Source: Meandrina meandrites (taxonomy: Eukaryota; Cnidaria; Anthozoa; Scleractinia; Meandrinidae). Taken from it: a stretch of 64,000 bases of DNA. A program made the position numbers and the translations under genes. Location: contig OY855903.1 of the NCBI GenBank assembly GCA_963693305.1, forward strand, positions 51,483,150 to 51,547,149, written 5' to 3'. Within the stretch, counting starts at the first letter, position 1. Every line of letters starts with the position of its first letter. The notes below the pieces were generated by a model. The model was not told the DNA's origin, did not search any database, and saw only the letters and a list, made by a program, of their open reading frames with translations. Shown piece by piece: positions 9,995 through 42,447 of this stretch.

Positions 9995-11804
9995 GAAAGG
10001 CTTACATTAGAAAAGACATTTTTTATTATATTTCCAAAATAATGTAGGTGTTTTGTTATCATGTACACTGGAGAAAAAATTGTAAGCAAATGTATATAAA
10101 AATATGGAGTAAGACTACAGATTATGTCAAAAGACATTTGATGATTCTAACAAATAGCTTATAGCTAAAATTACAGTACAATGACAGATGCAATGCTAGT
10201 CAAAACTACTTTGTAACAACTAACCTTGAAACAGCTATTGGTAAACTAACGGCAATAATTTATTGGATGAGTATGATGTGAAGAATTATGCCGATCGAGG
10301 ATGGTGGATAAATTACTCTCCGAGATCTGCGTAATTCTCCATATCAAACGAAAGCCGAATTCAATACTACAGGTGTAGTAGTTTTATTATTCATTCAAAA
10401 TATTTCCAGTGCTCTAAAAACACAAAGTGCATTTAACAAAACTGTAGCCAATTCCTCTGCTGTTGCTGGATTTTGGATGTTTCTCTCCTGAAGATAAGCT
10501 TTAAAAATCAAGTGACTAATCCCTTAGTAGCTTTCTTTTTTTTTTGTTTGCTTTCTTTATCATCTAATAATTTGGAAATCTTTTCGTCATAATGTTCAAA
10601 CCTATCAGCCATTTTCGCACTTTCTACTCTGCAGTATCAAAACCATTGTTGCATGATGTCAATTGTCCAAATATATTTTTTCTATTATTGGAAGGTTGAC
10701 ATCAGTCGTCCACTAATTATTACGTAAAGTGTCCAATAAGAGAAACTTCTTCCAGATTTAATCAGTGATAGCTGATTAGCTGGAGGCTTTAAGCCAATCA
10801 GAAACAGAGAAATACTTCATGAATGAATAATAATGAACTGTGTCATAATTCTTCTTCCGGATATTCACTTCCAACAATTGCTGCTGATTTGTAGCGTGTT
10901 GCAAATAATAGCATGATGATGATTATACTTCTAGTAAATTGTTTTGTTTAAAAAGCAGATTATTAATAAAAATAATAAAATCTCAGTTTCACACCTCAGA
11001 CATCTATCAGGTGTGGTTCTCTTCTGTTCAAGGGAGGGGTTTAAAGGGGCTATGTCACCAGGTTTCCGCAGATTTTTGGTCTAAACTGTTCTGAAATTAG
11101 TGGTAGGCAATTAAGCCCATGAAAAACATTATCTTTGAACATCTAAAAGAAGATATATCCTTAATTTGCAGATAGAAATCAAACTAAAGCTATAAATATA
11201 ATTTTTTGACCACGCTCAGAGACAACTTGTAAAGTTTAGCCTTAATTTTTCAAGTTGCAATCCATTTCCATCCAAGCCATCTGCAGCCAAAGATGCTTGT
11301 TAACAGTTTCAGGGCTCTAATATAGCAATTGTTAACAAAAATGGCCCATTATTTTTTGCATATGTTACAAAGTGGAATATCCCTGGAAAGAAAAGAGATA
11401 TTTGAAAACAGTAAACTAGACTACTTGTAGTCGGTCTTTTTTCAAAAGGGTCGGAGGAGTGGTTTTATATCGGGACAGTATAGACGGGAGGGGCATGGGG
11501 CGAGACAAGAAAAAACCGCTTTGTGAGCCCCGGTTTATTTTTCCTCGCGCGCTCTTTTCGCGGCTCAATCCCCTCCACACCCCCCCCCCCCCCCCCCCCT
11601 AAACGCGTCTTCAACCCTAGTTTGCAGCATTCCTCTGAATTTCGAGAGAAAACAGACTGCAACCAAGATGTGAATTTCATCATTGGTCACGGACCACGCG
11701 TGGAACAACGGGTAGAGCGCGCGACAACGCGACTTTCTGATTTCCGCCTCAGCCACACCCATTGAGTTTATTGCAGCACGGCAAGCGCCGTTGCTGGCAA
11801 TTAT
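9995..11804. other. Intergenic DNA between PPP1R2 and the first receptor gene
   Basis: It contains the PPP1R2 3' UTR and, near its right end, the presumed promoter and 5' UTR of the receptor gene. A cytosine run lies at about 11580-11600. Frames overlapping that run give proline/glycine strings and are not genes. No RNA gene was recognised. Confidence 0.4.
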
Positions 11805-14800
11805 ATGGAGGGTGTAAAGGAGTATTTATTGTCAAAGTATTTCAGTTCGTTTGGCTACATTGTAGCTGTTCTTCACCTTCCAGCTTTAGTAATATTTCTG
11901 GGGTTCACAGTACAACTGAGAACCAGCGAACGTCGAACATTTCGCTGTCCGTCTTCTCCCGATTTTCGTGACGACTGTTTGGCGCAGTATGACGAGCAGT
12001 ACAACTCTCCTTTTCCACTCTATGGATTTGTTCTGTTGTGTTTTGGTCCTCAATTGGCTGTGTGCATCGCTTACTCCTGGTGCTTTGTTAAATCACGAGT
12101 TGACGAGCTAGAAACTGCCTTGAAGGCAGATCCAGAAAACCCTCGCCGCAGGCCAAGAGTCACAACTCGCCGAGTGTTTTACTCGTACCTTCTTCATCTC
12201 CTTGTGCGACTTTTACTGGGGATTTTGTTTATAGTGTTACAGAACTTTGAGTTTTATCCAAATAGCTTTCCAACGAAATTCGTCTGCGTTTCTGCAACCG
12301 TAAAGCCCATCGTAAATTCCACGAATTTCAATACGACAAAAGATTCAGTCCATTCAGCCATTGACTGTGACAATTCTGTTGGATCTGACAACGCAACCTG
12401 GGGGAAGGGAATTTGGATAGTGAACATTCTGTTTGCATTGCTCGTGTTCGGCGAGTTGTGCTATATTTTAGCGCGAGGAGTACCGTGCAACGAGTTCACC
12501 TTCGACTCCGAATTTTGTCAAAGACACCTTTTCAACAAGAGTAGTACTCCAGTCACGCTGCATGAGACCACATTGCGCATGAAAAGACGAATACGCGAAG
12601 ACACCGAAGTTCTAGAACCTTTGATTGCTCAACCCGAACTCGAAAACAACAGACTTTTGGATGACGTTTTTGTTGATCTTGTCATTTACACGGGAAGAGC
12701 GGAACACGAGTTTACAGACTTGTTAAGAAGACACGAAATATTTGACATCTATTTGAAGCCCCAACATGGATCAGTACCCATAAAGAAACTTGAAGAGTTA
12801 TTTCTTCCCAATGAAGATACCCAAAATCCTCGCAGAATTCTTGTAGTTGGACGCCCAGGGATCGGAAAGTCTTTGCTATGTACGAAACTGTCGCGTGACT
12901 GGAGCAATAATGATCTGTTGCGTGACGGTAACAAAAGATTTGAACATTTGTTCCTGTTCAAATTCAGATGGTTCAATACTGCAGCAACAACGAACATTTC
13001 TCTCAAGCAGTTATTGAGTCGTGTATATTCAGAAGGAAATATAGACAGCAAAGTTTTCCAGGAGGTCTTAGATAACCCTGAGAAAGTACTTTTTATATTT
13101 GATGGCCTTGATGAATTTAAGCACCATGAGAGCTGTTTGGAGGAAGAGCAAGCACAAGGTGGAAATAGTCCAACAGAGGAAATGCCATTCTCTGCACTGT
13201 ACATCAAATTAGTGAAAGGAAAACAGCTTTCTGGAGCCACAGTTCTGACAACTTGCAGACCCAATGTGGTGCAGAGTATTTCAGGGCAGAAATTTGACAG
13301 GAGGGTTGAGATAATGGGATTTACACCAGAGAAAGTTCAGGAATATGTACACAAATTTTGTGGGCATGATGCAGAGACAGTGAACAAAATATGGGGGCAT
13401 ATCAGCAGCAATTTAGAGTTGTTGTCTCTGTGTTACATTCCTGTGAACAGCTTCATTGTTTGCTCCCTTTTGGAAAAGTTGATTACACTCCAAGACCAGA
13501 ATTCAGGAAGTACTTTGCCAACAACTTCAACTGAAGTTTATGAAGCAGCTCTCAGATTGTTTATTTTCAAGCATCATCCAGAATTTAAGGGTAAACTGTT
13601 AACAAAGAATTACCTTATGGGAAATGTTGCCTTCTCAGATACTATAGAAGAAACCTTATCCCAAGTGGGATCATTGGCAAAAGCAGGAATAAAAGAAAGG
13701 CGACTGGTGTTTGATTCAACAGAAGTACAGGGAATTGAAAACTGTGGCTTGTTTAACCGTATGCCAGACAGTGAAATTTCACTTTGTAGATTTAGTTCTC
13801 ACTTCTGTTTCATTCATCTGACACTCCAAGAGCTACTTGCTGCCAGAGAAATTGCAAAGATAGAGCCCAGTGACCTAAGTGCATTCATCTTCTCAAATGT
13901 CTCAGATCCAAAGTGGCATCTTGTCATTCAGTTTGTGGCGGGTCTTCTCCGTGGCCAGGAAAATGAAGCAGTTAACAGCTTTGTGAGCATTCTTCATGAG
14001 TCTTTGACCGAGGAGCCTCCATTGTCAGATGAAACAAAACAGAAGGCTATATTAATGATGAAGTGTTTGTATGAGTACAATAATGAAACAACTGTGGAGA
14101 AGGCAGCTTCTGAACTACAGAAGAGCAGTAAGTTTAGAAACAAAATAGATTTGTCTCATTGTCAGGTAACACCTGCTGACTGCACAGCAATTGTGTATTT
14201 TATAAAGCATGTGCATGAACTCACCGAGTTGGACCTTTCTGGTAACAAAGTAACAGGTCAAGGTGTAGCACATCTTTGTGATGCATTAAAAGATGTAAAT
14301 TGTAAACTCACTGAGCTGGACCTTAGTTTTAACAATATAACAGACCAAGGTTTATCACACCTGTGTGATGCACTAAGAGATGTAAGTTGTAAACTCACCA
14401 AGTTGAACCTTGGTCATAACAATCTAGAAGACCAAGGTGTATTACACCTGTGTGATGCACTAAAAGATGTAAATTGTAAACTCACCGAGTTGAACCTCTA
14501 TCATAACAATATAACGGACCAAGGTGTTTCATGCCTGTGTTATGCACTAAAAGATGAAAATTGTAAACTCACTAAGCTGAACCTCCGTGGAAACAGTGTA
14601 ACAGAACAAGGTGTATCACACCTGTCTAATGCACTAAAAGATGTACGGGTTCATTGGAAGCTCACTGTGTTGAACCTTACTGAGAACAAAATAGGAGACC
14701 AGGGAGTATCACACTTGAGAGATGCACTAAAGAATGTAAATTGCAGTTTCACTGATTTGAATATTCGTTATAACAATATAACAGACCAAGGTGTGTCATG

Positions 14801-15668
14801 GCTGAGTGATGCATTGAAAGATGCAAATTGTAAACTCACTAAGTTGAATCTTAGAGGGAACTGTTTAACAGACCAAGGTGTCTCGTGCCTGTGTAATGCA
14901 CTAAAAGATGAAAATTGTAAACTCACTAAGCTGAACTTTAATGGTAACCAAATAACTAACCAAGGCGTTTCATTCCTGTGTGATGTGCTAAAAGATGTAG
15001 ATTGTAAACTTGATAAGTTGGACCTTAGTGATAACAAGATTGAGAGTCTTGGTGCGTCACATCTGTGCGATGCACTAAAAGATGTGAATTGCAAACTCAC
15101 TAAGTTGGACCTTGGTTGTAACAGTCTAACAGACCAGGGTTTAACATACCTGTGTGATGCACTAAAAGATGTTAATTGTAAACTGACCAAGTTGCACCTT
15201 AATTCAAACAAAATAACAGAGCAAGGTGCATCAGACCTTTGCGGTGCACTAAAAGATGTAAATTGTAAACTGACTAGCTTGGACCTTCATTTTAACTGTA
15301 TAAGAGATCAAGGTGTATCACACCTGTGTGATGCCCTAAAAGATGTAAATTGTAAACTCACTAAGTTGGACCTTGGTCATAACAATATAACTGACCAAGG
15401 TGTATCATACCTCTGTGATGCATTAAAACATGTTAATTGTAAACTCACTAAGTTGTACCTTACTTTTAATTTTGTAACAGTCCAAGGTTTATCACACCTG
15501 TGTGCTACACTAAAAGATGAACATTGTAACCCCACTAAGTTGGACTTAAGGTTTAACAATATAACACCTAAAAGTGAAGCACACTTGCATTGTGCACTAA
15601 AAGATGATTTAAAAGAAAATGATTGTGAACTAATTATGGGAGGGCAGAACCTGTGGGAAATGATGTAA
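11805..15668 (+). CDS. Four-helix membrane NACHT-LRR receptor (1287 aa), intact
   Basis: A single uninterrupted exon. Residues 1-225 hold four hydrophobic helices (about 17-38, 71-93, 124-146, 203-223). The loop between helices 1 and 2 has Cys48 and Cys58; the loop between 3 and 4 has Cys161, Cys188 and N-glycosylation sequons near 171 and 196. A basic intracellular loop lies at about 95-123. A linker with the VFVDLVIYTGRAE motif leads into a NACHT ATPase: Walker A GRPGIGKS at about 349-356, Walker B FIFDGLDE at about 430-437, then the sensor-like LTTCRP stretch. From about 805 to 1285 follow about 16 leucine-rich repeats of 29 residues (consensus LTKLDLxxNxITDQGVSHLCDALKDVNCK). The NACHT-LRR part is that of innate immune NLR proteins. 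The helical module resembles connexin/pannexin/LRRC8-type channels in layout; this assignment is inference. The ATG at 11805 places about 16 residues before helix 1. A polyadenylation motif AATAAA lies at 15924. Confidence 0.93.
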   Translation: MEGVKEYLLSKYFSSFGYIVAVLHLPALVIFLGFTVQLRTSERRTFRCPSSPDFRDDCLAQYDEQYNSPFPLYGFVLLCFGPQLAVCIAYSWCFVKSRVDELETALKADPENPRRRPRVTTRRVFYSYLLHLLVRLLLGILFIVLQNFEFYPNSFPTKFVCVSATVKPIVNSTNFNTTKDSVHSAIDCDNSVGSDNATWGKGIWIVNILFALLVFGELCYILARGVPCNEFTFDSEFCQRHLFNKSSTPVTLHETTLRMKRRIREDTEVLEPLIAQPELENNRLLDDVFVDLVIYTGRAEHEFTDLLRRHEIFDIYLKPQHGSVPIKKLEELFLPNEDTQNPRRILVVGRPGIGKSLLCTKLSRDWSNNDLLRDGNKRFEHLFLFKFRWFNTAATTNISLKQLLSRVYSEGNIDSKVFQEVLDNPEKVLFIFDGLDEFKHHESCLEEEQAQGGNSPTEEMPFSALYIKLVKGKQLSGATVLTTCRPNVVQSISGQKFDRRVEIMGFTPEKVQEYVHKFCGHDAETVNKIWGHISSNLELLSLCYIPVNSFIVCSLLEKLITLQDQNSGSTLPTTSTEVYEAALRLFIFKHHPEFKGKLLTKNYLMGNVAFSDTIEETLSQVGSLAKAGIKERRLVFDSTEVQGIENCGLFNRMPDSEISLCRFSSHFCFIHLTLQELLAAREIAKIEPSDLSAFIFSNVSDPKWHLVIQFVAGLLRGQENEAVNSFVSILHESLTEEPPLSDETKQKAILMMKCLYEYNNETTVEKAASELQKSSKFRNKIDLSHCQVTPADCTAIVYFIKHVHELTELDLSGNKVTGQGVAHLCDALKDVNCKLTELDLSFNNITDQGLSHLCDALRDVSCKLTKLNLGHNNLEDQGVLHLCDALKDVNCKLTELNLYHNNITDQGVSCLCYALKDENCKLTKLNLRGNSVTEQGVSHLSNALKDVRVHWKLTVLNLTENKIGDQGVSHLRDALKNVNCSFTDLNIRYNNITDQGVSWLSDALKDANCKLTKLNLRGNCLTDQGVSCLCNALKDENCKLTKLNFNGNQITNQGVSFLCDVLKDVDCKLDKLDLSDNKIESLGASHLCDALKDVNCKLTKLDLGCNSLTDQGLTYLCDALKDVNCKLTKLHLNSNKITEQGASDLCGALKDVNCKLTSLDLHFNCIRDQGVSHLCDALKDVNCKLTKLDLGHNNITDQGVSYLCDALKHVNCKLTKLYLTFNFVTVQGLSHLCATLKDEHCNPTKLDLRFNNITPKSEAHLHCALKDDLKENDCELIMGGQNLWEMM
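14220..15640 (+). repeat. 87-bp tandem repeats encoding receptor LRRs
   Basis: About 16 coding units of mostly 87 bp, each carrying a version of GATGCACTAAAAGATGTAAA and TGTAAACTCAC. Units are moderately diverged, and two of them (near 14640 and the last) are longer. The frame is preserved throughout. Minus-strand open frames across this stretch are mirror artefacts of the repeat. Confidence 0.95.
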
Positions 15669-18961: not shown

Positions 18962-19036
18962 GATAACCGGACGAATTACAAAATGTTTGCCGAAGCTCGT
19001 CCAGACGGGTAACGCGTCTCTAGTATAAAAACGGCC
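18745..19036. mobile_element. 292-bp palindromic MITE, copy 1
   Basis: The element is almost a complete inverted repeat running from GGCCGTTTTTATACTAGAGA to its complement. AAT target duplications lie at 18742-18744 and 19037-19039. The length equals the copies at 19084 and 39764. A 3-bp duplication recalls PIF/Harbinger transposons, but the target is AAT/ATT and not the usual TWA. There is no transposase; frames inside it are spurious. Confidence 0.9.
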
Positions 19037-19083
19037 AATGAGGATCATGTACCTTTCATTAGCTGTTTTAGTTGCAGGAGATT

Positions 19084-19158
19084 GGCCGTTTTTATACTAG
19101 AGACGCGTTACCCGTCTGGACGAGCTTCGGCAAACATTTTGCAAATCGTCGGGTTATC

Positions 19159-19189
<31 letters not shown>

Positions 19190-19375
19190 GTTACCTGTCT
19201 AGACGAGCTACTTTTCGAAACGCGTCTTGAACGACGGATTTCGAAAAGTAGCTCATCCAGACGGGTAACGCGTCTTTTGCCCGTCTTTATACTAGAGACG
19301 GATAACCGGACGAATTACAAAATATTTGCCGAAGCTCGTCCAGACGGGTAACGCGTCTCTAGTATAAAAACGGCC
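19084..19375. mobile_element. 292-bp palindromic MITE, copy 2
   Basis: The same termini and length as copy 1, flanked by ATT at 19081-19083 and 19376-19378. It sits only 47 bp from copy 1, each with its own target duplication, so these are two independent insertions and not a tandem duplication. Confidence 0.9.
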
Positions 19376-22997: not shown

Positions 22998-23160
22998 ATT
23001 AAAGGCCTTGAAGTTCTCCAAAAGGCGAGTACTCATTCTCTTTATTGACAAAATCAAATTGTTCTGACTAGTTTTATGGCGGTAGTTTGTCGATCGTTGT
23101 TTGTGCATTCGCACTGATTTTCACGCCATTTATACACTTAACTGCAAGTCGCCGGCTTAC
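22998..23160. repeat. Duplicated block F, copy 1 (partner about 25880-26020)
   Basis: Shared landmarks are GGAATTAAAGGCCTTGAAG, TAGTTTGTCGATCGTTGTTT, GTGCATTCGCACTGATTTTC and ACTGCAAGTCGC. Both copies are on the plus strand. Each adjoins a 15-bp minisatellite array, but the two arrays are in opposite orientation. Confidence 0.75.
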
Positions 23161-23170
23161 ATACCCGATG

Positions 23171-23405
23171 GCATATTGTAAAACATGGACTGGAGTGGAG
23201 TGGAGTGGATTTGTAAAACACGGACTGGATTTGTAAAACACTGATTTGTAAAAGATGGATTTGTAAAACACTGATTTGTAAAACACTGATTTGTAAAAGG
23301 TGGATTTGTAAAAGGTGGATTTGTAAAACACTGATTTGTAAAAGGTGGATTTGTAAAACACTGATTTGTAAAAGGTGGATTTGTAAAACACTGATTTGTA
23401 AAAGT
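23171..23405. repeat. 15-bp minisatellite, copy 1 (GATTTGTAAAA orientation)
   Basis: About 13 units of 15 bp alternate between GGATTTGTAAAAGGT and GATTTGTAAAACACT. The array is preceded by GGCATATTGTAAAACATGGA and three GGAGT repeats. Long repetitive frames (FYKS- or FTN-type) through it are artefacts of a period divisible by three. Confidence 0.9.
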
Positions 23406-24045
23406 TATACAATAACAAGACTTCTGTGTGTACTGAGGTAAAGCGTTCAACGGCGTTCAACTGCCATTCATGGATTTCCCATAGCGGCTACAAACTACTC
23501 AAGCATCGGACAAACACTTAAAGCTTTCGATAATTTTTCAAATCAGTCACTGTCTACTTCAAGCTTGTTTACCATCACGCGCGCGAGTCACAACACGCAG
23601 TGACGTCATCTGTGTGTCTGTACACTAATAGATGACAGGCATCAACCAATCACAACGTGTACAGTAACTCGGTTAATAATATAGACTATGACGAACTTAT
23701 CAACAGGCAAAATAAATGTTCCAGAAGTGTTTCGAAATGCGTTTTGACAAATAATGAATAATGAGCAACAGAGTGCAATGTTTCGTGAGAGAAGTTCATG
23801 GTGTCCGCTTTATCGAGAGTCAAAACAATAAAATTGCTCTTTTGGTTCCGCGAAAGTGTCCGAAATTCCGTAATAGCGAGAGTCCGTAATAGCTGGCGTT
23901 ATTTCCAGTCAAACCTCTGTAGCTTTCGCCAGAGATCTGAATTTTGTCCGTAATAGCGAGTGTCCGTAATAGCGGGGTGTCCGCAAGGCGAGAGTTGACT
24001 GTATTGACAGCTTGGTACTGCAAACTGTCAATACATATGGTCATA
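23406..24045. other. Repeat-rich non-coding stretch
   Basis: No gene seen. From about 23850 to 23997, TCCGTAATAGCGAG motifs recur and the stretch ends in GAGAGTTGACTG followed by TA. This looks like the right end of a mariner-like MITE whose left end could not be placed. Confidence 0.4.
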
Positions 24046-24973: not shown

Positions 24974-25565
24974 TTGCCGGAGTTCACGTGGAATGCCATA
25001 AGCATTAAGGAGGAAATAGGTAGCGGAGCGTTTGGAACAGTTTATTTGGCTGACTGCAAGGACGAGGCGGGATGTGTGGTGATAAAGAAACATAAAGGGG
25101 AAGCGGCAGAATCGAAAAGACGCTTCAAGAAGGAAGCTGACATTTTATATTATACAGCGTGAAAGGCCACAGAAACATCTCCTGTTTTTTAAAATTTTGT
25201 GAAGAGCCTCACGCGATAATGATGAAATATTCATGCTTCGACTTCGGTCCACTTGGTGTGGAGAAGAAAGTGTCAACGCTGGAAGACTTCGTCCATTTTG
25301 TTGACGCCGAATTCGACTTTTCAGCATTCGGCGATCTGTTATTGGTGTGTGCAAGAGACTTGGTAACTGGGCTAGCATTTCTACACAGTAACGGTATTCA
25401 CCGAGACTTGAAGCCAGGCAACACTTTAGTTTGCAACCAACACTACGACAAAGATGATCTTCAGGGATCATATGCCAAATGCCCCATTGTGTGCAAACTC
25501 GCAGACTTTGGCCTCAGCAGATCACTAGACATTCAGACCTGCTCGTTTCTGGAAACAAGAACGGA
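24974..25565 (+). pseudogene. Protein kinase fragment, frameshifted and truncated
   Basis: The N-lobe has the glycine loop GSGAFGTVYLA and a probable VAIK-type lysine (VIKKHKG). The C-lobe begins HRNISCFLKF and keeps the catalytic loop HRDLKPGN and the DFG motif (LADFGLSRS). A one-base shift near 25150-25160 separates the two halves: the first frame stops, the next continues in register with the family. The activation segment is cut at about 25565 by the 15-bp minisatellite, and no C-terminal half of the kinase follows. No ATG in frame lies just upstream of the glycine loop. The residues indicate a formerly active serine/threonine or tyrosine kinase, now broken twice. The subfamily was not assigned. 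Confidence 0.8.
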
Positions 25566-25840
25566 ATCTACCTTTTACAAATCCATGTTTTACAAATCCA
25601 CCTTTTACAAATCTACCTTTTACAAATCAGTGTTTTACAAATCCACCTTTTACAAATCAGTGTTTTACAAATCCACCTTTTACAAATCAGTGTTTTACAA
25701 ATCCATGTTTTACAAATCCACCTTTTACAAATCAGTGTTTTACAAATCCACCTTTTACAAATCAGTCTTTTACAAATCCAGTCCGAGTCCGTGTTTTACA
25801 AATCCACTCCACTCCACTCCAGTCCATGTTTTACAATATG
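25566..25840. repeat. 15-bp minisatellite, copy 2 (TTTTACAAATC orientation)
   Basis: The reverse complement of the array at 23171-23405, with about 15 units alternating TTTTACAAATCCACC and TTTTACAAATCAGTG. It ends in CCACTCCACTCCACTCCAGT and TTTTACAATATGCCATACCC, the mirror of the other array's edge. It directly interrupts the kinase fragment. Confidence 0.9.
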
Positions 25841-25879
25841 CCATACCCGATTGATTCTTCCAAAAGCTAAATTAGTAAC

Positions 25880-30622: not shown

Positions 30623-31072
30623 TATTTCTCCATTTGGTTCGGATGGCCCCGCTATGCGGGGCTTTTAACAGACGTCTTGGCCCTGGGGGCGGGGAAATAA
30701 GCCGTTTTTTAACACTTGGTAAGTGTTAAATTCCCCGCTAAGTCCCGGGGGTCGGGGGGCCGGAGTTTCAATTGACTGATGCATTAGCCTTTGAAAAATT
30801 TACTCGTGCTGATTTATCCCAAATTGCACTCGAAATCATGTGATTACCTATACAAATAAACATATTCCGAAATTTCAAAGTAATTGGACTGTGCAAAACA
30901 GAGAAATTTCAAGTTGAAAAATGCTTATTTTAGGCCTTCATAATCGTAGAGCGCTCGGGAAAATTGTCGAAAAATTTTCGGAGCTTAAAACTGTGACGTC
31001 ATTATTGGTGTGCTCTGAAATTGCGGGAAATTCAAAGTCTTTCAGTGATGAAGCTCACAAGAATGGGATATC

Positions 31073-31430
31073 ATGGTGTTTTGTGCACCACCAAACTGCT
31101 TAAATAATTCTAAGTCGAAAGTAAATACGTTTAAGTTTCCAGCAAATTCAAAGCTCAGGAAACAATGGCTTTTGAAAATGAAAAGAAAAGAATTTAAGCC
31201 AGACAAGAACTCTCGCTTTTGTGCGGTTCATTTTACCAAAGACTGCTTCAGAGAAAATCTGGCGATACGTAGGTTTCTGGTTCTGATTTCAAGCCGCTCA
31301 GACTCCACCTCAAAGAGGATGCTATGCCGACTAGTTTTTTTGTTCGGAAACGAAATCACGGGCAAGAATGCCTCCCGAAGCACAAAGTCCCGCTGTCCGT
31401 TCGGCTTTTGCTAAACGAAGGAAGTTAGAG
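31073..31430 (+). pseudogene. Degenerate THAP zinc-finger exon
   Basis: The frame from the ATG at 31073 has the THAP pattern: MVFCAPPNCLNN (zinc Cys pair), then a TFKFPANSKLRKQW block with the invariant Trp, then RFCAVHFTKDCF (Cys-x2-His). After about residue 65 the family-like continuation (LKEDAMPTSFF) is in another frame. The tail (AFAKRRKLE) is in a third frame and runs into a consensus donor at 31431. So at least two small indels have broken the exon. It lies inside the TTAA-flanked element and is most simply its former transposase N-terminus. Confidence 0.75.
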
Positions 31431-33084
31431 GTATGCATTTTGCACCTTTCTTATTCTACCTAGAGCTAGATAGAGTATTTGTTATGATTATTAGCACTTT
31501 TACTTTGTTGGTTTGGCTGGTCATGATCAAGTATTAGAATTTGAATTCGCCAATATAAAATTATGCTTCAAAGGTTGTATTTATGTTGGGTTTACAACCG
31601 TTAATTTCGAGCACTAAATAACGGGCACCGGCTAAATAAATACGGACCAAAAACAGCTAATACAAACAGAACTCACAGTGTCCACGGGGACAGTGTGTAA
31701 ACGCTCTGTATTTATTTCAACATTGAATTTTCCTTCAGTTGAAAGATAAAACGACACGAATTTATTCATTAAAAGTTTTACCCTGCATGATGCTTTTGCG
31801 GTCTCAAATTTGCATTGAGAAATATCCTTACATTCAAGTTAAATATTTGAGTACAAATTTATTTTTGTGTTTTGTGTGACTCTCGAGTACGGAAAAGAGA
31901 GAGTGAATTCAATCTTGGATGTGGCTTTTGGCCACATTCTATTCAAGCCGCACACGCGCGTCCTGATAAGAATTACGTGCAAATCCAAAAAACTGCATTT
32001 CGCTTGGGGTATATAACAAAATTAATTGTTCTATACCAAGCTGAGCAGACTGATGATTTTTATACGCCATCCAGTGTTTGAAAACCTCCTATATCGTACA
32101 ATGCTTACAATTTTACTCAGTGCTTTGGTAATTATTAATCTTTGAAACTGGATTCCAATGTAGTAAAAAATATAACAACAATGTTTAAAAAAAGCTTAGA
32201 TCCTTTCAGAATTATTTGAATTACTCAGACTGACTGAAACTCTCAAACTTTACATTATTTGTTTTTTAAACGACGATCGTCTCTTCGATCGCAAAGCCGT
32301 GAAATAAAACTATTACGTCACAAAATTCAAAGCTCGATCCATTCCTTCCATTTCAGTGCGCGGTCATTTTGGAAACGTTTTCATGAGGTCTTCGGAAATC
32401 TTCGTAGTTCTTGCTATAGTTCGCGCTTAAAGGCTCAGAAAGCAAAATTTCGCCTTAAGTTTACTTAATAATGAATTCTTTTAGCGTTTGGTTGCTTTAA
32501 AATCGCTAAAGAAACAATGTCGAAATTTTGGTTCATTTGACCTTTAAGGATAAAATATTTACAGACTGGAAGAAAGCACCAAATTTGGTACACATGATCT
32601 TTTTAGTATACCAAACAAATTCAGAAGGGGTGCCACGTGATCCGATCATCCGTGGGGGAATGACACGCAATTCAATTTCTGGATATCTCTATCAGCATGA
32701 AAACGAGGCTGGGAAGTCAAAATGACCCTTATCTGTGTTTCCTATTGGCAACTTGATTCAAAATAGATAAAAACATCACTTATTAGGTAGTCTCGTCAGT
32801 TTGCAAAGGTCAAGGATGTTTACAATATAGTCACGTGACAATCCCATGAGTCTTTGTATGAGAATGAAGTCAAACGTTCCTCTTCATGTTTCTTATTGGT
32901 GACAAATGAAAGCAAGGGACCGCGGACGAAAATGCTGCTGGTGTACGTAGGAGCTACTGACAGCTCTAATCAGCCAAAAATAAAATACAAAGACAATAAA
33001 CTGCAAGGCTGACACTACGTAGAAATGAAAAGCCTTAACGGGACAACGACATGATAGAGTCCAAACTGAAAGCCAAAAATGCAA

Positions 33085-33129
33085 ACTCTGGACAGCTGTT
33101 TCGACCTGATTGGGTCTCGTCAGCAGAGT
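33085..33129 (-). ncRNA. Type I hammerhead ribozyme (HHR-3)
   Basis: Read on the minus strand: stem I ACTCTG/CAGAGT, core CTGACGA, stem II GACC-CAATCA-GGTC, GAA, then ACAGCTGT with C17. All invariant bases are present. Confidence 0.9.
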
Positions 33130-33932
33130 GTATGCCACACAGAATAGAACAACTAGCGTGAAGACAGTTGTCTATAAAGTGCTCGCTGGTAATGGCAATC
33201 CGAGAGGGCTCAAATTCGAAAGCCCGCCCATTGACAACAGCCGCGTGACTATTACTCAATAGGTCAAGAATTCGAAATATCATGTCGTTGTCGCGATAAG
33301 GGAAGTGAGGATAGCCAGAACTATCCGTACACTGAAAACATGGACAAAGCCATGTGAAAACAACACTGCAAACATGGACAAAACCATGTGAAAACAGTGA
33401 AAATGTACAGCATATCGGATCTGAAAAGATCTACGGTCCAAATAAAACTGAAAATGACAAATGAAAGCAAGGGACCGCGGACGAAAATGCTGCTGGTGTA
33501 CGTAGGAGCTACGTAGATTAGAGCTGGTGTACGTAGATTAGAGCTGTCAGTAGCTCCTACGTACACCAGCAGCATTTTCGTCCGCGGTCCCTTGCTTTCA
33601 TTTGTCATTTTCAGTTTTATTTGGACCGTAGATCTTTTCAGATCCGATATGCTGTACATTTTCACTGTTTTCACATGGTTTTGTCCATGTTTGCAGTGTT
33701 GTTTTCACATGGCTTTGTCCATGTTTTCAGTGTACGGATAGTTCTGGCTATCCTCACTTCCCTTATCGCGACAACGACATGATATTTCGAATTCTTGACC
33801 TATTGAGTAATAGTCACGCGGCTGTTGTCAATGGGCGGGCTTTCGAATTTGAGCCCTCTCGGATTGCCATTACCAGCGAGCACTTTATAGACAACTGTCT
33901 TCACGCTAGTTGTTCTATTCTGTGTGGCATAC

Positions 33933-33977
33933 ACTCTGCTGACGAGACCCAATCAGGTCGAAACAGCTGTCCAGAGT
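33933..33977 (+). ncRNA. Type I hammerhead ribozyme (HHR-4)
   Basis: Identical to HHR-3 but on the plus strand. The core CTGACGA is at 33939-33945, and cleavage is predicted after C33971. It forms the opposite arm of the palindrome. Confidence 0.9.
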
Positions 33978-34083
33978 TTGCATTTTTGGCTTTCAGTTTG
34001 GACTCTATCATGTCGTTGTCCCGTTAAGGCTTTTCATTTCTACGTAGTGTCAGCCTTGCAGTTTATTGTCTTCTTATTGGTGA

Positions 34084-36490: not shown

Positions 36491-37180
36491 GACAATAAAC
36501 TGCAAGGCTGACACTACGTAGAAATGAAAAGCCTTAACGGGACAACGACATGATAGAGCCCAAACTGAAAGCCAAAAATGCAAACTCTGGACAGCTGTTT
36601 CGACCTGATTGGGTCTCGTCAGCAGAGTGTATGCCGCACAGAATAGAACAACTAGCGTGAAGACAGTTGTCTATAAAGTGCTCGCTGGTAATGGCAATCC
36701 GAGAGGGCTCAAATTCGAAAGCCCGCCCATTGACAACAGCCGCGTGACTATTACTCAATAGGTCAAGAATTCGAAATATCATGTCGTTGTCGCGATAAGG
36801 GAAGTGAGGATAGCCAGAACTATCCGTACACTGAAAACATGGACAAAACCATGTGAAAACAACACTGCAAACATGGACAAAACCATGTGAAAACAGTGAA
36901 AATGTACAGCATATCGGATCTGAAAAGATCTACGGTCCAAATAAAACTGAAAATGACAAATGAAAGCAAGGGACCGCGGACGAAAATGCTGCTGGTGTAC
37001 GTAGGAGCTCAGTTTGGGCTCTATCATGTCGTTGTCCCGTTAAGGCTTTTCATTTCTACGTAGTGTCAGCCTTGCAGTTTATTGTCTTTGTATTTTATTT
37101 TTGGCTGATCAGAGCTGTCATTAGCTCCTACGTACACCAGCAGCATTTTCGTCCGCGGTCCCTTGCTTTCATTTGTCATT
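36491..37180. mobile_element. Hammerhead retroelement, subfamily 2, rearranged copy
   Basis: Flanked by a 12-bp direct repeat TATAATTTCTCG (36479-36490 and 37181-37192). A minus-oriented unit with a hammerhead (36491 to about 37010) is joined to a plus-oriented segment carrying the unit's 3' portion and its 5' edge. The joint near 37010 differs from that in the other palindrome, so the inversion arose independently. Confidence 0.8.
36584..36628 (-). ncRNA. Type I hammerhead ribozyme (HHR-5)
   Basis: Same sequence as HHR-3 on the minus strand: stem I ACTCTG/CAGAGT, CTGACGA, GACC-CAATCA-GGTC, GAA, ACAGCTGT, C17. Confidence 0.9.
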
Positions 37181-38453: not shown

Positions 38454-39763
38454 ATGGTTCTCGACAAATTGAAGGAGCTTCTTACTCCAAGTTACTTCAG
38501 TGTGTTTGGCTATACCGTAGCAGTTCTCTATCTTTTTACTGGAGTAACGCTGTTGGGAATCACAGCAACCTTTGAAACCCGTGAAAGTCGAAACTTTGTT
38601 TGTGATGTCCGCGACACGCTGTCTGACAAGAATTTTGTTCGCGGGCAGTGCTATGAACAGTACAAACAGCAGTACAACTCTCCTTTTCCACTTTATGGCT
38701 TTGTCCTTTTGAGTTTTGGTACTGTGACAGGTGTGTGCGTCGCCTACTCCTGGTGCTTTGCGAAATCACGAGTTGATGAAATTGAAAACGCCTTCAAACC
38801 AGATCCAGAAAACCCTCACCGTCGGCTGAGAGTGGAAACTCGCCGAGTGTTTCATTCCTACTTCCTTCATCTGCTTGTGCGACTTGTATTGGGGATTTTG
38901 TTCACTGTGCTGCAGAATTTCATTTTTTACCCTTTTGGCTTTCCAACGGAATTTCCCTGTGTTTTGCCAACAGTGACAGCAACAGTTCAGATGGTGACAA
39001 ATTCTGCAGTTTATTTGAACGTCACAAGCGAAGCGCCTTCCTCTCTTTCCTTTCAGGAATCTGTTAGTTGTCACAATTCGGTCGGATTTGAAATTTCTTC
39101 CAGCGCCACAGCTACCTGGATAGTGAACACTCTTGCTGCATTGCTTGTGTTCGGGGAAACGTGCTACCTTGTTGTACGAGCGCTGCAAAGGAAAGAATTG
39201 ACCTTCGACTCCGAATTTTGTCGAAAGTATCTTTATAACAAGACCTTGAGTACTTGTGAAGCCAAGCTGCGTCAGTGCAGAACGCTCATGAAAACACGAA
39301 TTCTTCAGGACACAGAGAACATTGAACCATTAATTGCAGCTGATATCAAAGACAGAAGAGCGGTAGACGATGTTTTCGTAGATCTTGTCATTCACGGCGG
39401 AAGAGCGAAATACGACGCTCTTGATGATCACGACTCGGGTTTAATAGAAACTTTTAGGCACAAAATATACCGAAGAAATGTCGATGAATTTAATTTTTTG
39501 CTGTCAGGCCGTAAAGGTAAAACATCGGTAGCCATACAGAACCTCGAAGAGTTATTTCTTCCCAACGAAGAAGATGCGCTGGAAAATGCTCAAGATCCTC
39601 GCAAAATTCTTATCATTGGTCGCCCAGGGATGGGAAAGTCGCTTCTTTGCACGAAATTGTCGCGTGATTGGACCAAATCTAACAGGGACGATGAACTGTT
39701 AAACAGTAAATTTACATATTTCTTTTTGTTCCAGTTTAGACAGTTCAATTCAACAGACACAAT

Positions 39764-39838
39764 GGCCGTTTTTATACTAGAGACGCGTTACCCGTCTGGA
39801 CGAGCTTCGGCAAAAATTTTGTAATTCGTCCGGTTATC

Positions 39839-39869
<31 letters not shown>

Positions 39870-39949
39870 GTTACCCGTCCAGATGAGCTACTTTTCGAAA
39901 TCCGTCGTTCAAGACGCGTTTCGAAAAGTAGCTCGTCTAGACGGGTAAC

Positions 39950-39980
<31 letters not shown>

Positions 39981-40055
39981 GATAACCGGACGAATTACAA
40001 AATGTTTGCCGAAGCTCGTCCAGACGGGTAACGCGTCTCTAGTATAAAAACGGCC
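39764..40055. mobile_element. 292-bp palindromic MITE, copy 3, inside the receptor NACHT
   Basis: Same termini and length as the copies at 18745 and 19084. Target duplication AAT at 39761-39763 and 40056-40058. The 295-bp net insertion shifts the frame by one base and lies between Walker A and Walker B. Confidence 0.95.
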
Positions 40056-41689
40056 AATATCTCTAAAGAATCTTCTTTGTTCACAAGAAATAATTGACAT
40101 TGATGTACTCCAGGACATATTAGATAACCCTGAGAAAGTACTTCTTGTATTCGATGGCTTCGATGAATTTAAGCACTACGAAAGTTGCAATGGAGAGGAT
40201 GAGCAGGCACACGGAAATGGTGCAACAGAGGAAATGCCATTGTCTACACTGTACGTGAAATTGATGAAAGGAAAACAACTTTCTGGAGCCACAATTTTAA
40301 CAACTTGTAGACCTGATGTAGTGCAGAGTATTCCAGATCTGACTGATTGTAGGATTGTGGAGATAATGGGATTTACACCAGAAAAAGTTCATGAATACAT
40401 AAACAAGTGTACTTTCTGTGAAGGTACAGATGCTGATGAAAGTGACCAACTGGCCAACACAATATGGGAACTTGTCCGTACTAATGTCAACTTGTTGTCT
40501 CTGTGTTATATTCCTGTGATTTGCCGCATAATTTGTTATCTTATGAAAGACCTGGTCACCAAACATTCACAGACCTTACCCAGAAAACTTACTCAAGTGT
40601 ATGAAGGCGCTCTGAGAGTGTTCATCTTTAAGCATCATCCAGATTACAAGGGTAAAGAATTTCGAGGAACTGAAGAGTTCTCTGATTCACTTGAAGAAGC
40701 TCTAAGCAGGCTTGGATCATTAGCAAAATCAGGAATAGAAGTAACACAGCTGATATTTGGACCATCAATGGTGCAGCCTGAAATGGAAAACTGTGGCTTG
40801 CTTAATCGCATGCCAGATAGGAAAATATCAACATTCAAGTGTGAACCAAACTTTTGTTTTATTCATTTGACTTTTCAGGAGTTTCTTGCTGCAAGAGAAA
40901 TTGCAAAGATGAATCCCAGTGACATCAAAGATTTTTTTACCTCCTGTGCTTCAGATCCAAAGTGGCATATGGTGATTCAGTTTGTGGCGGGCCTACTTGC
41001 CACTGGAGACACACAGGAAAATGAAGCAGCTTACAGTTTAATCAGCCTTCTGCAGGAATCTTTGGCAGATTTAGAGGTTTCAAAAGAAAACACTCAGAAG
41101 GCCTTACTCATGATGAAGTGTTTGAATGAGTATGGCAATGATGCTGTTATGGAAAAAGCATTGTCTGCACTGCAGAAGAACAGTAAGTTTAGTAACATAC
41201 TGAAATTCTCTTCCTGTCAAGTCACACCTGTTGACTGCACAGCAATTGTACCTTTTGTAAAATGTCTTGAATGTACTGCGTTGGAACTTGCATTCAATCA
41301 TGTCACTAACCATGGAATATCACTCCTGTGTGATGCACTTAAAGATGTAAATTGCAAACTCACCAAGTTGAATCTCAAGTGCAACGATATAACAGAGCAA
41401 GGTGTATCACACTTGTGTGATACACTTAAAGATGCAAATTGTAAACTCACCGAGTTAGACCTTGGGTGTAATTATATTACAACTCAGGGTGCAGCACAAA
41501 ATGAGGGTCATCATGGAGCCTTAGACTTTTTTTTTTCACACACATTTAACTCTGTCCTTAACTTAGCTGACCAAAAAATATCGTATCAAGGTTTATCCCA
41601 CCTGTGCGAGTCACTAAAAGATGTAAATTGTAAACTCACTAAATTGGACCTTTCTTTTGCCAAGATAGCAGACCAAGGTGTATCCCACC

Positions 41690-42170
41690 TGTGCAATGCA
41701 CTAAAAGATGTAAATTGTAAACTCACTAAGTTGAACCTTAGCGGTAACAAGATAACAGACCAAGGTGTATCCAACCTGTGTGATGCACTAAAAGATGTAA
41801 ATTGTAAACTCACTAAGTTGGAACTTAGCGGTAACAAGATAACAGACCAAGGTGTATCCAACCTGTGTGATGCACTAAAAGATGTAAATTGTAAACTCAC
41901 TAAGTTGAACCTTAGCGGTAACAAGATAACAGACCAAGGTGTATCCAACCTGTGTGATGCACTAAAAGATGTAAATTGTAAACTCACTAAGTTGGAACTT
42001 AGATGTAACAACATAATGGACCAAGGCTTATCCCATCTGTGCAATGCACTAAAAGATGTAAATTGTAAACTCACTAAGTTGGACCTTAGTGGTAACAAGA
42101 TAACAGACCAAGGTGTATCCAACCTGTGTGATGCACTAAAAGATGTAAATTGTAAACTTACTCAGTTGAG
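41690..42170 (+). repeat. Near-identical 87-bp LRR units
   Basis: Four units carry the same GGTAACAAGATAACAGACCA and GATGCACTAAAAGATGTAAA with almost no differences, in contrast to the diverged units of the first receptor. This implies recent unit duplication or gene conversion. Confidence 0.9.
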
Positions 42171-42447
42171 CCTTTGTCGTAGCGATATAACAGACCAAGG
42201 TGTATCACACCTGTGCAATGCACTAAAAGATACAAATTGTAAACTCACTAAGTTGGACCTTCAGTTAAACAAGATAACAGACCAGGGTGTACCCCACATG
42301 TGTGATGCACTAAAAGATATAAATTGTAAACTCACCAAGTTGAACCTTTTTGGTAATGATATAACATACGAAGGTGCATCACACCTGTGTAATGCACTAA
42401 AAGATGAAAATTGTCAAGTCATCACTCAGTTGGACCTTCAGTTATAA

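Follow-up and report, generated by a model that had tools for sequence, protein, structure and literature searches.

We analysed a window of 64,000 nucleotides from the stony coral Meandrina meandrites (assembly GCA_963693305.1, contig OY855903.1, forward-strand positions 51,483,150 to 51,547,149; the coordinates below count from the first letter of this window). At 11805..15668, on the forward strand, it carries a single-exon gene for a protein of 1,287 amino acids (P0001), in which a connexin-like membrane module is followed by a NACHT domain and by leucine-rich repeats (LRRs). On sequence evidence, the module is homologous to connexins over its four transmembrane segments (TM1 to TM4), and the fusion of module, NACHT and LRRs is real and widespread: genes of this kind make up a large family, both in this genome and among stony corals. 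As regards function, we consider it reasonably probable that the protein is a NOD-like receptor (NLR) with a connexin-superfamily four-helix N-terminal effector, the NACHT part of which would form a ring that assembles or opens a hemichannel.

The gene is a single frame from ATG to stop, with no interruption, and an in-frame stop starting at 11763 precedes the ATG by 42 bases. The open reading frame (ORF), hydropathy and Pfam together confirm the claim of a previous sequence-only reading that four helices, NACHT and LRRs lie in one protein. The hydropathy analysis (19-residue window) marked four segments within residues 1-230 (12-39, 70-95, 124-151 and 197-228), and a further marginal hydrophobic segment directly past the NACHT match (537-557, maximum 1.68). 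On the basis of hydropathy, the module is composed of membrane helix 1 (residues 12-39, 11838..11921), outer loop 1 (residues 40-69, 11922..12011), helix 2 (residues 70-95, 12012..12089), a basic inner loop (residues 96-123, 12090..12173), helix 3 (residues 124-151, 12174..12257), outer loop 2 (residues 152-199, 12258..12401) and helix 4 (residues 200-224, 12402..12476). Outer loop 1 contains Cys48, Cys58 and the motif E42-x3-F46-x-C48, while outer loop 2 contains Cys161, Cys188 and N-glycosylation motifs. Helix 4 contains Glu217, invariant in both alignments inspected (14 and 41 sequences).

A conserved linker, predicted to be cytosolic (residues 225-342, 12477..12830), leads to the NACHT domain (residues 343-519, 12831..13361; Pfam E 1.5e-27), which bears the Walker A sequence GRPGIGKS. 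C-terminal to NACHT, Pfam identified 14 LRR_6 stretches, and the LRR region spans about residues 831-1248 (14295..15548). All these features are on the forward strand. Among the Protein Data Bank (PDB) sequences, NACHT and LRRs match NLRP1, NLRP3, NLRP14 and ribonuclease inhibitor. The HD2 and winged-helix matches are weak in P0001 (0.21 and 0.025, respectively) and stronger in its relatives.

The Pfam Connexin family (PF00029) matched P0001 at residues 116-163, corresponding to helix 3 and the start of loop 2, with E 0.0063 for the module (16.7 bits, against a curated cut-off of 31.3 bits) and 0.076 for the whole protein. The E-value for a second copy in the window was 0.0068. Since the score of P0001 was below the cut-off, and its module alone retrieved no PDB connexin at E up to 10 (what it matched was weak and unrelated: Rab7, 0.36 to 1.2, and thymidylate synthase, 1.3 to 1.4), profiles of the module were built. 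The first, from 14 sequences (the two window modules and 12 relatives drawn from the 120 listed), gave ten PDB rows at E up to 10, all of them connexins, with a best whole-sequence E of 0.0018. Scanned singly against Pfam, ten of these 14 modules matched Connexin at E up to 10 (best 0.0011). With a 27-sequence profile, GJC3 was found at 9e-4, and connexins made up 20 of the 23 rows at E up to 1, the other three being rhodopsin.

A third profile was made from 19 modules of the same genome, comprising P0001 and 18 of 20 fetched regions (L032 and L034 were omitted). Searched against 177,635 PDB sequences, it retrieved GJC3/Cx31.3 with E 6.9e-7 (best domain 4.4e-5). Connexins filled rows 1 to 19 of the 31 obtained at E up to 10, and five of the 31 were other proteins (rhodopsin, galanin receptor twice and TOK1 twice). 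When the same modules were compared singly to PF00029, 19/19 matched at E up to 0.05 and 11/19 at 0.001 or below, with a best value of 1.4e-6. The profile-to-connexin alignments extend, in order, from TM1 or outer loop 1 through TM4, that of the 14-sequence profile to connexin 26 starting within helix 1, at profile position 20. Outer loop 1 aligns to connexin loop 1, the two cysteines of each coral loop align with connexin loop cysteines 1 and 3, and in loop 2 a coral C-x5-SEK stretch aligns with the C-x5-SEK of connexins. The previous reading had described the module as channel-like; at the sequence level its helices indeed match a large-pore channel family, specifically the connexins.

Reversed sequences were used as controls. 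Among ten reversed modules, none matched Connexin in Pfam at E up to 1, and at E up to 10 the family was absent among the 25 of 26 families listed. The reversed profile gave two PDB rows, both unrelated chains and neither a connexin. Unrelated families appeared among the reversed modules down to E 0.0017, so a lone score near 0.001 is unsafe for membrane segments. The case for connexins draws its weight from scores between 1e-5 and 1e-7, from the profile match and from the agreement among members.

Other large-pore channels were considered as origins of the module and rejected. Innexin/pannexin (PF00876), the pannexin-like domain of LRRC8 (PF12534) and CALHM are absent from the Pfam lists of the 14 modules (E up to 10) and of the 19 modules (E up to 0.05). 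Neither the 14-sequence nor the 19-module profile gave a PDB row for innexin, pannexin, LRRC8 or CALHM at E up to 10.

Where the species of a relative is recorded, it is a stony coral: Oculina patagonica, Desmophyllum pertusum, Pocillopora verrucosa, Stylophora pistillata and Orbicella faveolata. Oculina, Orbicella and Pocillopora belong to Scleractinia, suborder Vacatina. Most database relatives have no species name, and the taxonomic range stated here is that of the named ones. A protein search with the module profile retrieved 65 proteins, 15 of them with a precomputed Connexin annotation. Ten of these 15 were rescanned, and in 10/10 Connexin was the best family over the module (E 5.5e-7 to 7.9e-5, all below the cut-off). 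A search with P0186, a divergent copy from the same genome, retrieved 408 proteins, and 26 of the 120 listed were annotated with both Connexin and NACHT. Eight of the 26 were rescanned: in 8/8 a Connexin match (E 1.8e-7 to 6.7e-5) preceded NACHT, and 5/8 had LRR_6 as well. Both rescanned sets had been picked because the database flagged them as Connexin. In one protein of 982 amino acids, P0261, the Connexin score exceeds the curated cut-off (31.6 versus 31.3 bits), and the same chain also bears NACHT and LRRs. The precomputed Connexin flag is present in 0 of the 120 listed closest relatives of P0001; thus, public annotation hints at connexins only for divergent members of the family. Several short connexin-like proteins without NACHT were also observed (among them P0161, P0147 and P0155), which may be partial gene models or standalone genes.

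The Meandrina genome was also searched (551 Mb in 56 contigs, the window being C1:51483150-51547149). With one query, at least 46 matching places were found, a number that includes L005 and L010, which are one split copy, and the broken second copy of the window. The genome may also hold standalone connexin-like genes from other subfamilies. Stop-to-stop frames of at least 800 amino acids were present at 41/46 places. A megabase-scale cluster on C11 (25.80-27.23 Mb) holds 34 of the 46, all divergent. Among 20 regions picked from the 46 places, 18 have helices, NACHT and LRRs in a single uninterrupted ORF. The exceptions are L040, with its LRRs in a separate ORF, and L034 (C3:3911000-3917000), a gene copy spread over three ORFs that is probably decayed or intron-containing.

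The second copy in the window spans 38454-42447 on the forward strand, and its module has the same design as that of P0001. Its first part (38454..39824) contains the connexin-like module and the start of NACHT, after which the frame is lost. A palindromic repeat lies inside its NACHT (39748..40071), with 159-nucleotide arms at 39748-39906 and 39913-40071 that are 93% complementary, and because of this insert the frame is broken in this assembly. The remainder (40234..42447), with the rest of NACHT and the LRRs, is in one frame, open from 40048 and with a first ATG at 40234. The sequence-only reading had argued that the fusion is no artefact because the window holds two paralogues of this design. 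The module is indeed common to both copies, but the broken frame of the second weakens the argument. Its place is taken by the genome-wide evidence, and the conclusion itself stands on the 18 single-ORF regions and on the full-length coral relatives. A translated stretch at 19013-19351 resembles the family of this palindromic repeat.

Selection was estimated on 15 chosen gene pairs with the Nei-Gojobori method, as the ratio of non-synonymous to synonymous substitution rates (dN/dS). In the module, the ratio ranged from 0.23 to 0.60, below 1 in 15/15 pairs, and in the NACHT part from 0.16 to 0.78. The LRR part gave 0.29-0.60 in eight pairs of window-type and C11:8.3 Mb genes. In seven pairs of the C11-type group, which includes one member on C3, it gave 0.54-2.25, with five of the seven above 1, over 92-94 codons and without a significance test. 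The pattern is only a hint of a constrained effector and a variable sensor.

Cysteines and glycosylation motifs (sequons) were counted in 267 of 307 proteins, those with a BLAST alignment across the whole module. All 267 have Cys48, Cys58, Cys161 and Cys188 as well as N-glycosylation motifs in outer loop 2, and the E-x3-F-x-C motif at the start of loop 1 is found in 162/267. An additional middle cysteine occurs in loop 1 of 17 proteins and in loop 2 of 18: both loops have it in 17, loop 2 alone in one, loop 1 alone in none, and neither loop in the other 249. This co-occurrence fits a third loop-to-loop disulfide, as in connexins. The inner loop is net positive, and N-glycosylation motifs there (positions 94-122) were found in 0/120 homologues and 0/19 genomic modules; in loop 1, a sequon was found in 1/120 homologues. 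From the sequon and charge pattern it follows that loop 2 should be outside and NACHT inside. The topology proposed by the earlier reading (short N-terminus, two outer loops, basic inner loop) is therefore supported by hydropathy, charge and glycosylation motifs, with an orientation that we infer. The Walker A pattern is present in 231/238 relatives of at least 500 amino acids.

Taken together, this suggests that the coral proteins are immune sensors with their own membrane channel, for which we infer pore formation, gating by NACHT and the immune role. The protein would sit in the plasma membrane or in the membrane of an endosome or symbiosome, and its NACHT and LRRs would lie in the cytosol. 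A ligand binding to the LRRs would trigger nucleotide exchange in NACHT and the formation of a ring under the membrane, which would gather (or open) six or more connexin-like modules into a hemichannel. The resulting flux of ions, Ca2+ or ATP could serve as an alarm or death signal. Glycans on outer loop 2 would block docking with a neighbouring cell, and the channel would then span a single membrane, unlike a gap junction.

Several observations weigh against this reading. P0001 on its own stays under the Pfam cut-off and finds no PDB connexin. The best-domain E-values of two profiles are weak (about 0.17-0.2 in the alignments shown for the 14-sequence profile, 0.014 for the 27-sequence one), and reversed modules reach 0.0017 with 7tm_1 and 0.0027 with a DUF. 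Among the 19 modules, other families match as well: UPF0542 (0.00046, one member), Adeno_E3_14_5 (0.00063 in the one member at or below 0.001, and 6/19 modules at E up to 0.05), CD20 (0.0028) and 7tm_1 (0.0041), the latter two in single members. In P0192, part of the module scores above the TMEM51 cut-off (E 1.1e-5), and this family ranks above Connexin. Most members, P0001 included, have four loop cysteines (2+2) against the six of canonical connexins, and those with the extra pair (17 sequences) may belong to a single clade. Sequons past TM4 are present in 5/120 homologues and 3/19 genomic modules. A connexin-like amphipathic N-terminal helix was also looked for and rejected: the hydrophobic moment beats shuffled sequences at 0.05 in 0/19 modules (lowest fraction 0.09), which leaves a pore-lining N-terminal helix unsupported.

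In the main rival reading, the module anchors the protein in the membrane and serves as a platform for oligomerisation, its pore having been lost or never having existed, and NACHT signals via partners. This is somewhat unlikely in our judgement, although the short N-terminus without amphipathic signal, the two disulfide pairs, instead of three, of most members and the sub-cut-off score of P0001 all speak for it; the dN/dS of the module and the four invariant cysteines, together with the conserved loop sequence, exceed what an anchor would need. We give very little credit to the idea that the helices are of a generic LRRC8, pannexin, innexin or CALHM type, or unrelated, with a merely compositional match to connexins. 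In its favour, single scores are often weak, and unrelated membrane families match weakly, also in reversed sequences. Nevertheless, connexins are lost on reversal, the matches run in order over TM1-TM4 or loop 1-TM4 with cysteines 1 and 3 aligned, and none of the four channel families appears in the PDB lists (E up to 10) or in the Pfam lists of the 14 and 19 modules.

Homology to gap-junction proteins could also point to a maker or regulator of cell-cell channels, that is, a gap junction with NLR-controlled gating. The outer loop 2 motifs found in all 267 relatives make this highly improbable: pannexin glycans of such kind are said to block docking (PMC8769644), and by analogy the coral motifs argue against gap-junction docking. 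The conserved loop cysteines, the co-occurring third pair and the loop 2 sequons argue for a hemichannel. That assembly or gene prediction fused two separate genes is hardly conceivable, given one ORF in 18/20 regions and the full-length relatives on record from Oculina, Desmophyllum, Pocillopora and Stylophora; the broken second copy and the two split regions of the 20 are all that favours it.

If an ancient connexin-superfamily module survives in corals as the channel effector of NLRs, a possibility taken up below, the coral proteins would be ligand-gated hemichannels with a NACHT ring as the gate. Animals would then have an immune receptor that leads straight from sensor to pore, and gap-junction connexins and an immune effector may have a common ancestor. 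Both the origin of connexins and direct channel action by animal NLRs, as in plant resistosomes, become testable. Because innate immunity is the defence that corals rely on, and because algae live inside their cells, this large and rapidly evolving group of membrane NLRs is a candidate for dealing with symbionts and pathogens.

Elsewhere in the window, a protein-kinase-like ORF (25141-25854, Pkinase E 6.2e-10) leads into a short tandem repeat, read as FYKS, and a similar repeat lies on the opposite strand (23074-23487). A THAP-domain ORF is located at 31052-31414 (E 2.4e-11); such ORFs often derive from transposons. Three near-identical ORFs of 131 amino acids, on both strands (33035-33430, 33632-34027 and 36534-36929), are probably a repeated element, and the one of the three that was scanned had no Pfam match.

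Compared with known systems, the coral module resembles connexins in its four helices, its two cysteine-bearing outer loops, its basic inner loop and its profile matches over TM1-TM4. It differs in its fusion to NACHT and LRRs, in the sequons of outer loop 2 and in its loop cysteines, usually 2+2, whereas canonical connexins have three per outer loop. The species range is also different. As far as the available parts of the sources go, the literature restricts connexins to tunicates and vertebrates (PMC6391747, PMC8769644): they are described as present in these two groups and absent in lancelets (PMC6391747), and a BLAST survey reported no non-chordate connexin-like protein except one unconfirmed sea-urchin transcript (PMC8769644). 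We tentatively raise, as a possibility with less than even support, that connexins are older than chordates, an early-animal module that survived in corals as an NLR channel effector.

Regarding NACHT proteins, a survey of 15 cnidarian proteomes reported 35 Pfam domains joined to NACHT, and the partners named in the portion of it available include HEPN, CARD, DD, TIR and others, with connexin not named there (PMC8260672). No report of connexin modules in NLRs was found in the open-licence literature, among the matches listed. The sea cucumber proteins AjNLRC4/AjNLR-new are, like the coral ones, animal NACHT proteins in the cell membrane; they have Ig domains and transmembrane segments, and no connexin- or channel-like part is described in the accessible portion of the source (PMC13133943). 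With the animal NLRs in general (NLRC/NLRP, NOD1/2), the coral proteins share a NACHT with Walker A and LRRs of the NLRP/ribonuclease-inhibitor type, but a membrane module replaces the CARD, PYD or death-fold effector.

The LRRC8 volume-regulated anion channels offer an analogy of working: they have four N-terminal helices and cytosolic C-terminal LRRs, with no known NACHT. The coral helices do not match the LRRC8 family in the Pfam and PDB lists given above, and the coral protein does have NACHT. In plant CNL resistosomes and fungal HeLo NLRs, the NLR oligomerises and its N-terminal part acts on the membrane, where soluble helices insert upon activation. In the coral proteins, by contrast, the integral membrane module is complete from the outset.

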